A DNA stretch of 64,000 nucleotides from Aphelocoma coerulescens (Eukaryota; Chordata; Aves; Passeriformes; Corvidae): NCBI RefSeq assembly GCF_041296385.1, contig NC_091023.1, positions 11,222,924 through 11,286,923 on the forward strand, read 5' to 3'. The notes under the pieces were generated by a model, which saw nothing but the letters and a program-made list of their open reading frames with translations, had not been told where the DNA came from and did not search any database. A program made the translations under genes and the position numbers. Below, one piece after another: positions 21,090-23,414 of this stretch (positions within the stretch are counted from its first letter, which is position 1; every line of letters begins with the position of its first letter).

Positions 21090-21095
21090 TAATAT
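21090..21095. repeat. Target-site duplication, left copy
   Basis: TAATAT directly abuts the outer TGTT end of the lower-coordinate LTR and is repeated exactly outside the other LTR at 23409-23414. The perfect match supports a single insertion with both ends intact. Confidence 0.85.
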
Positions 21096-21384
21096 TGTTA
21101 CAGTGGGGATTCTGCAACACGTGTATCAGACAACGAGACCCGTGGAAAAGGAATATCTATGGACGGATTCTTGCTAGATGTTTCAGAGATGTTTATTTCT
21201 CCAGCCGCATGGCCGGGCTCTGCCGAGGCACCACTCAATCACGGGACCCGAGGGTCCTTGCCCACGCAGGGGAACACAAACCAACCAATGGGGAACGAGG
21301 CTGACCGGGGCAGGGAAACTCTGTGCCTCCCCCCCAGGGCCCCTCTCCCAGGGCTACATGGCAGGGGGGGAAGGGACCCCAACA
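21096..21384 (-). repeat. 3' LTR of the Y-box element
   Basis: On the minus strand this 289-bp LTR starts TGTTGGGGTCCC and ends CTGTAACA. Reading along transcription it has a C/G-rich U3, an ATTGG (inverted CCAAT) core at 21285-21289 and an AATAAA poly(A) signal at 21192-21197, followed by a T/G-rich U5. I see no clear TATA box. By hand alignment it differs from the 5' LTR by about 15 substitutions and 3 single-base indels, roughly 5% divergence. Confidence 0.9.
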
Positions 21385-21405
21385 TCTCACCCGTTTATTT
21401 TTAAC
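21385..21405 (-). other. Weak polypurine-tract position with AATAAA
   Basis: The minus strand reads GTTAAAAATAAACGGGTGAGA straight into the TGTT of the 3' LTR, the place where a retroelement has its polypurine tract. It is A/G-biased but broken by several pyrimidines, so it is weak or decayed. An AATAAA lies at 21394-21399 just upstream of the LTR. It could be left over from the 3' end of the captured mRNA, or chance. Confidence 0.3.
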
Positions 21406-21634
21406 AAAAAGAGATTTAAAACTTAACATTGGAAACAACTGGATAAACATAACAAGAACAGTTTCAAAACAAAACAAGCCACCTTCCTGAGTCTTTAAAT
21501 GTCCAAACAGATTCTCTGGAACATCTTAAGGCTGACAGAAGGGAGACAGGACTCTCCAAGCATGCTTTGTGGGGAAACTGAGGCAGGAGAGGGTTTCTTC
21601 CATTTGTACCTGTTGGAACCCTAAACAACAATAG
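21406..21634 (-). other. Untranslated 3' part of the element interior
   Basis: This lies between the stop of the Y-box frame and the polypurine-tract position. It is T-rich on the sense strand, has no meaningful open frame and shows no envelope-like sequence. It may be 3' untranslated sequence of the captured transcript or of the parental retroelement; nothing in it decides which. Confidence 0.5.
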
Positions 21635-22189
21635 TTAATTTCTTCCCTCCCCCTCTTCATCCCCTACTCGGCATTGGAAAGGGATTTTTGGGGAAAAAAT
21701 TGGCAAAGGCATGGTTTTGTGAGGAAAACCATGGGTGAAAAAACGGATTGGGAATACACTGGGGGTAATAGGACATAGGGTAAAAGGGGAAGGTGGGATT
21801 AGGAAAGGGAGACTGTAGGGGTCTTTATAATGTGGATATTGTCTAACATGAGTACGATTTTTAGCATATATACTGCCTTTTACAGAAACACCATCAGGCC
21901 CGGTGACCTCTGCTGCTTGTAACCCTTTTCTACCTTGCACAATTTTGAACTCTACTACTTCTCCATCTTCTAAACTTGGGATGTATTTTTCAGGGTTATT
22001 CTTTCTAATAGCAGTTCTATGAACGAATATGTCCTCTTGGTTGTTAAACCTCATTATAAAACCGTAATTTTGTTTAACATTATACCATTTTACTATTCCT
22101 AAAACTTTAGCTATGATGATTTTTTCCTTTTTCCAAGTGGCTGCTGTTTTCTGTCTCGCTGCGTTTTTGGTTTTCTCTTTCGTTTTCGC
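21635..22189 (-). pseudogene. Y-box-type cold-shock domain (captured YBX-like retrogene)
   Basis: The frame is open from just after a TGA (22190-22192) to TAA (21635-21637), about 184 codons. The first ATG, at 22054, falls inside the domain, so an ATG-started product would lack the first strands. The cold-shock domain spans about 22108-21854: AKVLG, KWYNV, the RNP1-like NYGFI, the RNP2-like IFVHRTAI, KNNPEKY and VTGPDG-V all occur in Y-box order. From memory it matches human YBX1 at about 53 of 85 positions. The Trp, Phe, Phe and His that contact nucleic acid in YBX1 are all kept. After NRTHVRQYPHYKD the Y-box charged tail is replaced by an unrelated Pro/Phe-rich stretch. The domain has no introns, unlike vertebrate YBX genes, which points to mRNA capture. 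With no upstream start in frame, expression would need frameshifting or another start; more likely this copy is decayed. Confidence 0.85.
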
Positions 22190-22721
22190 TCACTTCCGTG
22201 TTGGAGCTGCCAGGGTTGCTGGGGCCGCGCGGGCTGCTTGTGCCTGCGCGCTCTTCCCGGGGTTGCATTCGGAGCCACGCGGGCCGGGCCGGGCCGCTCA
22301 GCTCCCCACGCGCCGCCACCTCTGCTCTCAGCTGCGCTGCCGCTGCCTGGGGCTGCACCCACGTCTCAGCTGGGCCCCCGAGTGATGACCCCCGGCGCCC
22401 TGCTCCAGCACTCATTTCGGCTGGGCGCGGCTCCCCTCCGCTGCCAGCCACCATTGCCAGCCGCCGCCTGCGTGCCACCGCTCTCGGTCGGGCGTTCACA
22501 GGGTTCGCTCCATCACGCGCTGCGCGGGGCCGGGCGGGCGCTGCTGGGTCACCCTGCTCCCGCCGCGCCTCGCTGCGCTGCTGACACTGCAGCTTGCGTC
22601 GCTCCACCTGCGCATGGGAACTGCCTCGCTGCTGCTCGAAGAGAGCTCGGTCCACGTGGGCGAGGCCACATGGTCCCTGAAGCAGTTTTAACTTCGCAAG
22701 GACACAGCTGACATTGTTCAA
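22107..22721 (-). other. G+C-rich open frame between gag-position ORF and Y-box domain
   Basis: This is a 204-codon frame, but its nominal start is TTG rather than ATG, so it is best read as an open segment, not a separate gene. The predicted sequence is rich in Arg, Ala, Gly, Pro and Gln, with a late Ser/Asn/Glu/Lys-rich stretch that runs into the A-rich sequence at 22115-22137. It overlaps the start of the cold-shock frame, which is +1 to it, and the end of the gag-position ORF, to which it is itself +1. It may be a fragment of a once continuous polyprotein, or the G+C-rich 5' end of the captured mRNA. I recognise no domain. Confidence 0.4.
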
Positions 22722-23007
22722 CAGTCTCGGTAATTAAATAATATTCATTAAAATATTCTTCCATCGGCATGTATTTTGACTCAGAAATTAACTGTGTCCA
22801 AACGGTCTTCCAAAAGTCTTTGGTAAGAATCAAATCCCAAGAAACGTAGAAAAAGTTCTTAAACAACCATGCCAGGAAATGTTTCCATTCCTTTTGAGCT
22901 TGAATTAAGCTAAAGTTTACAAATCGTTGTTCAAGAATCTTTTCAAGTTTAAGATAAATGCCCATATGCGGCTCTGAGAGCCAAGAGTCTTTCCACAGTT
23001 CCTCCAT
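22549..23007 (-). CDS. Gag-position ORF, 152 residues, function unknown
   Basis: This is the first ATG-started frame after the primer-binding site, about 94 bases downstream of it, which is where gag begins in retroviruses. Residues 1 to about 97 come from A+T-rich sequence and are unusually aromatic (many Trp, Phe and Tyr) and probably helical. The spacing of Trp/Phe residues loosely recalls the matrix domain at the Gag N-terminus of class II retroviruses. That is inference from pattern only; I cannot name the family with confidence. The last 55 or so residues run into the G+C-rich block and are Ala/Gly/Arg-rich and Cys-containing, probably out of the original frame. There is no capsid major homology region or zinc knuckle, so any Gag is truncated. 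Translation in this copy is possible but unproven. Confidence 0.45.
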   Translation of the reverse strand: MEELWKDSWLSEPHMGIYLKLEKILEQRFVNFSLIQAQKEWKHFLAWLFKNFFYVSWDLILTKDFWKTVWTQLISESKYMPMEEYFNEYYLITETVEQCQLCPCEVKTASGTMWPRPRGPSSLRAAARQFPCAGGATQAAVSAAQRGAAGAG

Positions 23008-23100
23008 AGTTTAGAGATGGAACAGCAAAACAAATACAAGAAGAGAAATCCAGAGTTTACTCACAAATCAGTCGCTGTCTTTAGGGATCCCGGATTGTTC
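23008..23100 (-). other. 5' leader of the Y-box element
   Basis: About 93 bases lie between the primer-binding site and the gag-position ATG, which is short for a retroviral leader. A packaging signal would be expected about here, but none can be recognised from sequence alone. Confidence 0.5.
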
Positions 23101-23118
23101 TGCTCACATTATCCACCA
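23101..23118 (-). other. Primer-binding site, tRNA-Ala-like
   Basis: On the minus strand, two bases after the AACA end of the 5' LTR, the sequence is TGGTGGATAATGTGAGCA. It begins with TGG, as primer-binding sites must (the complement of tRNA CCA). It matches my recollection of the 3' end of a vertebrate tRNA-Ala(AGC) at 16 of 18 positions. Position and TGG start are seen directly; the tRNA identity rests on memory. Confidence 0.6.
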
Positions 23119-23120
23119 TT

Positions 23121-23408
23121 TGTTACAGCAGGGATACTGCAACACGTGTATCAGACAACGAGGCCCGTGGAAAAGAAATATCTATGGACGGATTCTTGCT
23201 AGATGTTTCAGAGATGTTTATTTCTCCAGCTGCATGGCCGGGGCTCTGCCGAGGAACTGCTCAATCACGGGACCCGAGGGTCCTTGCCCACGCAGGGGAA
23301 CACAAACCAACCAATGGGGAACGAGGCTGACCGGGGCAGGGAAACCCTGTGTCTCCCCCCGGGGCCCCTCTCCCAGGACCACATGGCAGGGGGGAAGGGA
23401 CCCCGACA
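23121..23408 (-). repeat. 5' LTR of the Y-box element
   Basis: This 288-bp LTR reads TGTCGGGGTCCC...CTGTAACA on the minus strand. It carries an ATTGG core at 23311-23315 and AATAAA at 23217-23222. The order U3 (C/G-rich, CCAAT-type), poly(A) signal, short U5 is that of a retroviral LTR and agrees with minus-strand transcription. Aligned to the 3' LTR it is about 94% identical. Confidence 0.9.
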
Positions 23409-23414
23409 TAATAT
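23409..23414. repeat. Target-site duplication, right copy
   Basis: TAATAT directly follows the GACA end of the higher-coordinate LTR and matches 21090-21095 exactly. Confidence 0.85.

Follow-up and report, generated by a model that had tools for sequence, protein, structure and literature searches.

We analyzed a window of 64,000 nucleotides from the jay Aphelocoma coerulescens (contig C11, 11222924-11286923), in which positions 21090-23414 hold, on the minus strand, a retroelement bounded by long terminal repeats (LTRs) and carrying a Y-box cold-shock domain (CSD). This copy is decayed. It is one member of an endogenous-retrovirus-like family scattered through the genome, and the single long protein of that family consists of a matrix-like domain, a low-complexity linker, the captured Y-box CSD and a Pro/Phe-rich tail. 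The parts of the window copy are listed below; L-numbers denote loci elsewhere in the jay genome and P-numbers database sequences.

21090-21095, no strand: target-site duplication TAATAT beside the 3' LTR (sequence, flanks)
21096-21384, minus: 3' LTR with TG...CA ends (blastn with the 5' LTR; 94.8% identity, Kimura two-parameter distance, K2P, 0.055)
21385-21396, minus: candidate polypurine tract (sequence; L054 and L055 are likewise purine-rich here)
21638-21898, minus: C-terminal tail, not in the frame that gives the Pro/Phe-rich tail in Corvus P0011, L047 and L048
21899-22099, minus: Y-box CSD (PF00313), residues 31-97 of the frame 21638-22189
22190-22677, minus: GC-rich linker, rich in Ala, Gly, Pro and Arg; frame broken here; 49% identity to the L048 linker
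22678-23007, minus: putative Gag matrix-like domain with ATG, 84% identical to L048 (fold test made on the lineage-B domain)
23101-23118, minus: candidate primer-binding site, beginning with TGG (sequence)
23121-23408, minus: 5' LTR of 288 bp, with AATAAA and ATTGG, the inverted CCAAT or Y-box core (sequence, blastn)
23409-23414, no strand: target-site duplication TAATAT beside the 5' LTR (sequence, flanks)

An earlier note on this DNA had described two LTRs of about 289 bp with matching 6-bp duplications, and these were recovered: the LTRs measure 288-289 bp, and TAATAT (plus strand) stands at both edges. Read on the minus strand, the element has TG...CA LTR ends, AATAAA inside the LTR and purines before the 3' LTR. 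The primer-binding site, also claimed in that note, is retained as a candidate only: TGG lies 2 bases past the 5' LTR, and most copies have TGG within a few bases of the LTR, but the bases that follow vary across copies and gave no match to the tRNA 3' ends with which they were compared. The coding region of the window copy is broken, its matrix frame (from 23007 down) not being in register with the CSD frame (21638-22189). The CSD itself is real and lies on the same strand as the LTRs (PF00313, E = 9.3e-21), it is uninterrupted by introns, and in PDB its top matches come from Y-box proteins (best E = 5.1e-33). The YBX genes of the host have several exons. The donor of the domain is a Y-box gene; among the structure matches YBX2 (144.2 bits) is marginally ahead of zebrafish YB-1 (142.3 bits), a difference that is not decisive between YBX1/YBX3 and YBX2.

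The 1.33-Gb assembly was searched with the window CSD frame as query. From 3,786 first-look candidates, a number not to be read as copies, 150 were scored, and at least 150 matches were obtained; 40 of the 150 listed loci were retrieved, the first 20 mostly top-ranking and the second 20 picked because their frames were long or their sequences divergent. A CSD is present in all 40 by selection, and the information lies in its surroundings. Upstream, the matrix region was found in 39 of them, the exception being L017. Among the first 20 loci, 19 align to most of the window element, with main pieces 80-92% identical, and L017 aligns from the middle onward only. Both LTRs surround the CSD in one orientation in 19 of 21 copies (the window copy and the first 20, without L015 and L017), and LTR matches lie on both sides in 18 of the second 20, L032 and L050 showing one only within the retrieved stretch. 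The 6-bp target duplications of the 19 two-LTR copies are exact in 14, all mutually different, and match at five of six positions in two; the remaining three have none, two of these with an incomplete 5' LTR match. In L054 and L055 the duplications are exact. Elements measure 2.2-2.3 kb (2.7 kb in L011), with internal regions of 1.62-1.74 kb in 18 of the 19 copies (2.15 kb in L011) and, in copies with two LTRs, a K2P between them of 0.007-0.121. The proposal of a hybrid family, formed from an endogenous retrovirus and a Y-box mRNA and present as scattered copies that are LTR-bounded and share the Y-box segment, is thus largely borne out, with LTRs flanking the CSD in 18 of 20 and again 18 of 20 loci. 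Contig C645 carries Y-box elements at 1239193, 1256888 and 1274582, a regular spacing of 17.7 kb, and contig C643 has at least nine matches between 1157015 and 1685033, several with identical scores, which suggests tandem or segmental duplication as a further route by which the elements multiplied. Locus L012 holds two copies of the element region side by side within 9.9 kb.

Intact copies reveal the coding layout, as the earlier note had expected: in several of them matrix to tail is one frame of 434-450 codons, with the CSD fused to the matrix-like domain. The ATG lies about 110-120 bases past the 5' LTR in L025, L026, L028, L054 and L055, and farther in L048 and L049. In two copies that were cut into their parts, 104-110 matrix-like residues come first. 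An Ala/Gly/Pro/Arg-rich linker of 183-188 residues separates them from the CSD, and 63-67 Pro/Phe-rich residues form the tail. The first ~100 residues resemble a retroviral Gag matrix domain, since the six best structural matches of the lineage-B domain are the matrix proteins of Rous sarcoma virus (RSV), mouse mammary tumor virus (MMTV) and Mason-Pfizer monkey virus. YBX proteins end in Arg-rich charged repeats; the tail of the element is Pro/Phe-rich instead, which argues for a captured domain rather than a whole YBX protein, and the latter was rejected. When the genome was searched with PF00313, 150 of 1,607 candidates were scored: no listed match had an inner stop, and 113 of the 150 listed lay in frames open for at least 440 amino acids from stop to stop, as did 86 of the 150 listed matches of a lineage-B matrix query. 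The W, F, F and H of the CSD, which we take to be RNA-contact residues, are kept in 46, 47, 44 and 46 of 47 copies, respectively.

Pfam scans of two open-frame copies returned neither Gag_p24 nor a zinc knuckle at E<=10, and scans of these copies and of the three minus-strand frames of the window returned no pol or env. With neither capsid, nucleocapsid nor enzyme found, the element should be non-autonomous and mobilized in trans. An autonomous element was accordingly rejected for want of pol, and with it the earlier suggestion that the hybrid transposed by itself; it should need a helper.

Two lines of evidence place the CSD and the matrix-like domain under purifying selection during the spread of the element. 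First, pairwise dN/dS (non-synonymous over synonymous divergence) was computed for lineage A, which includes the window copy, as mean dN over mean dS for segments more than 90% covered, dropping pairs with dS <=0.03 and leaving out L051, L052 and L054-L056. The ratio is 0.24 for the CSD (42 of 42 copies; shifted frames 0.95 and 1.37), 0.25 for the matrix (36 of 42; 0.73 and 1.35), 0.46 for the tail (13 of 42; 1.31 and 1.21) and 0.60 for the linker (30 of 42; 0.96 and 0.80). Between the lineage-B copies L054 and L055 the CSD differs by three non-synonymous and seven synonymous changes, a ratio of 0.12 (Fisher p = 0.002, with site numbers approximated); the tail gives 0.32, and constraint is weak in the matrix (0.70) and linker (0.62). 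For seven A-B pairs the values are 0.18-0.26 in the CSD and 0.26-0.38 in the matrix, whose synonymous sites are near saturation. Controls on single pairs spread broadly, from 0.23 to 4.73, and for L048-L028 one control (0.23) is lower than the coding CSD value (0.32). Secondly, branch lengths were fitted per codon position and third positions compared with first plus second. The ratio on internal versus terminal branches is 3.9 vs 1.7 for the CSD, 2.5 vs 1.4 for the matrix and 1.4 vs 1.2 for the linker. Constraint therefore acted mainly while the elements multiplied, the pattern predicted for a protein that serves the element.

Lineage B (L054-L056) has the same protein plan as lineage A and holds much younger copies, L054 having an LTR pair with 100% identity over 273 bp and L055 one with 99.66%; the family appears to have copied itself recently. 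The matrix is 36-41% identical between the lineages, and the CSDs of A copies are 58-69% identical to that of L055. L042 and L052 resemble A/B mosaics in the CSD or tail, as expected from retroviral template switching, which suggests recombination between lineages during reverse transcription. Proteins with the same layout are found in the database for Corvus moneduloides, where a cluster, P0011, has 24 members and both lineages are represented: P0016 is B-like, and P0013 joins an A-type matrix to a B-type CSD. P0015 is a database relative from A. coerulescens itself. The protein search finds only relatives that share common short words, and it says nothing on absence elsewhere; a scan of viral contigs found no relatives. 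Two short ENA contigs, P0001 and P0006 (705 and 505 bases), encode CSD pieces with 73-78% identity. The corvid proteins suggest that 'uncharacterized' CSD proteins predicted in Corvus moneduloides and Aphelocoma can be retroelement proteins.

We infer that the family probably descends from a recombinant class-II provirus, and that its matrix-CSD protein is an adaptor which takes the element's RNA into helper particles. According to this hypothesis an ancestral class-II (alpha/beta-like) provirus would have recombined with a spliced Y-box mRNA, at the cost of capsid, nucleocapsid and pol. The CSD, sitting at the place of the nucleocapsid, would bind the element's RNA, the matrix domain would take the CSD-RNA complex to membranes or into particles built from helper Gag, and the helper would provide reverse transcription and integration. 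Because the conserved parts are a membrane- or assembly-type domain and an RNA-binding domain, an adaptor is the simplest reading. As reported in PMC4486188, MMTV Gag, its RNA and YB-1 co-localize, and YB-1 knockdown lowers particle production; PMC6040738 likewise has YB-1 affecting murine leukemia virus and MMTV production in an RNA-dependent manner. The fusion would fix permanently the association reported for MMTV Gag, host YB-1 and viral RNA. The fuller claim, that this is a vertebrate satellite retroelement with its own RNA-packaging protein, built by joining a mRNP-packaging domain of the host to a viral matrix domain, that this adaptor selects the element's RNA and brings it into helper particles, and that the family is active in living jays, we advance tentatively, holding it slightly less than evenly probable.

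Many gag frames in the same genome make helpers plausible. From 3,086 gag candidates 150 were scored, all above the family cut-off; among the matches listed, an open frame of 613 amino acids recurs more than 20 times, and 646 amino acids is also a recurring exact length. Frames of such recurrent length are probably those of recently active proviruses, which may be helpers of the Y-box element. No provirus with the same LTR, leader or matrix was identified, one 701-base sample being without similarity. The L028 locus also contains two retroviral gag genes with long open frames (L028:1490-3424 and L028:7411-9096).

The adaptor has to be weighed against other explanations of why a Y-box domain was kept. 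The best of these, which we nevertheless regard as unlikely, is transcriptional self-activation: the Y-box protein would bind ATTGG in the LTR, or affect mRNA stability or translation, and so raise expression of the element, packaging being passive. ATTGG is present in 68 of 80 full-length LTRs, compared with ~23% when the letters of these LTRs are shuffled, and falls within one of the 14 best conserved 12-base LTR words; as a promoter box, however, ATTGG/CCAAT is commonplace and is bound by NF-Y, and its conservation needs no Y-box protein. Binding of YB-1 to the RSV promoter has been reported (PMC6040738). Self-activation leaves the conserved fusion to a matrix-like domain unexplained, and an action on the LTR and a role as adaptor are not mutually exclusive.

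Considerably less probable is that the protein serves the host. Gag-derived restriction factors interfere with retroviral assembly, matrix fragments could act as dominant-negative Gag, and selection on the bird might retain a domesticated matrix-CSD protein for its binding of retroviral RNA and its disturbance of assembly. The frame is indeed intact and conserved in many copies. However, selection located mostly on internal branches, and the many dispersed LTR-bounded copies, fit selection on the element. Improbable to almost the same degree is a functionless passenger, a captured CSD carried along in a family that was amplified through LTRs and RNA compatible with a helper. Non-autonomous LTR families without functional coding capacity do exist (VL30, ETn), and the linker, at 0.60 against 0.96 and 0.80 in shifted frames, is close to neutral. 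We rejected this explanation on the dN/dS of 0.24-0.25 for CSD and matrix, against 0.73-1.37 in the shifted-frame controls, and on the larger third-position excess on internal branches; the 113 of 150 listed CSD matches that lie in long open frames also count against it. Chance insertion of a Y-box retropseudogene into an older LTR element, with the Y-box segment confined to the window copy as the earlier note had considered, has a negligible probability and found no supporting point, being refuted by the dispersal of the LTR-matrix-linker-CSD-LTR layout through the jay genome and the presence of the protein layout in Corvus as well.

Host YB-1 is reported to aid several retroviruses in steps that involve RNA and assembly. 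Evolution appears to have fixed a partnership of the YB-1 type by fusing both proteins, and the product has multiplied widely. The matrix-CSD family thereby lets one examine, in a natural and replicated experiment, what role a Y-box domain plays in the handling of retroviral RNA and how few parts suffice for a satellite retroelement.

Like the acute transforming retroviruses of the gag-onc type, which are replication-defective and helper-dependent and whose cargo acts on cell growth, the jay element has host sequence behind an N-terminal Gag portion and would rely on a helper; we know of no gag-onc virus that became a long-lived, multiplied germ-line family. VL30 and ETn-MusD are LTR elements that a helper spreads in trans, as would hold for the jay element, and to our knowledge they do not encode a host-derived RNA-binding protein under selection. 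Capture of host mRNA by endogenous retroviruses is already known, and a dispersed, apparently recently active family with a matrix-Y-box fusion did not turn up in searches of the open-access literature. There we found no account of an LTR element bearing a CSD, although an entry may well exist in repeat libraries, which were outside the scope of the search; a term search in two papers on bird endogenous retroviruses (PMC6523648, PMC8310711) found no mention of one. Plant LTR retrotransposons capture genes, some of them under purifying selection, and the abstract of PMC3726574 describes many different captured genes and neither a matrix fusion nor a single amplified cargo. Among the close parallels are the crocodilian endogenous retroviruses that captured KIT-ligand and nectin3 mRNA, and which, as reported in PMC4299795, also combine mRNA-derived host coding sequence with purifying selection on the captured frames; there no viral domain was lost when KIT-ligand was added, and nectin3 took the place of env. 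In the jay element, unlike these, the RNA-binding domain follows the matrix-like domain in-frame, and capsid, nucleocapsid and everything downstream are gone. In the MMTV case, finally, YB-1 comes from the host and acts in trans, whereas the jay element encodes its Y-box domain itself, joined to a matrix-like domain.
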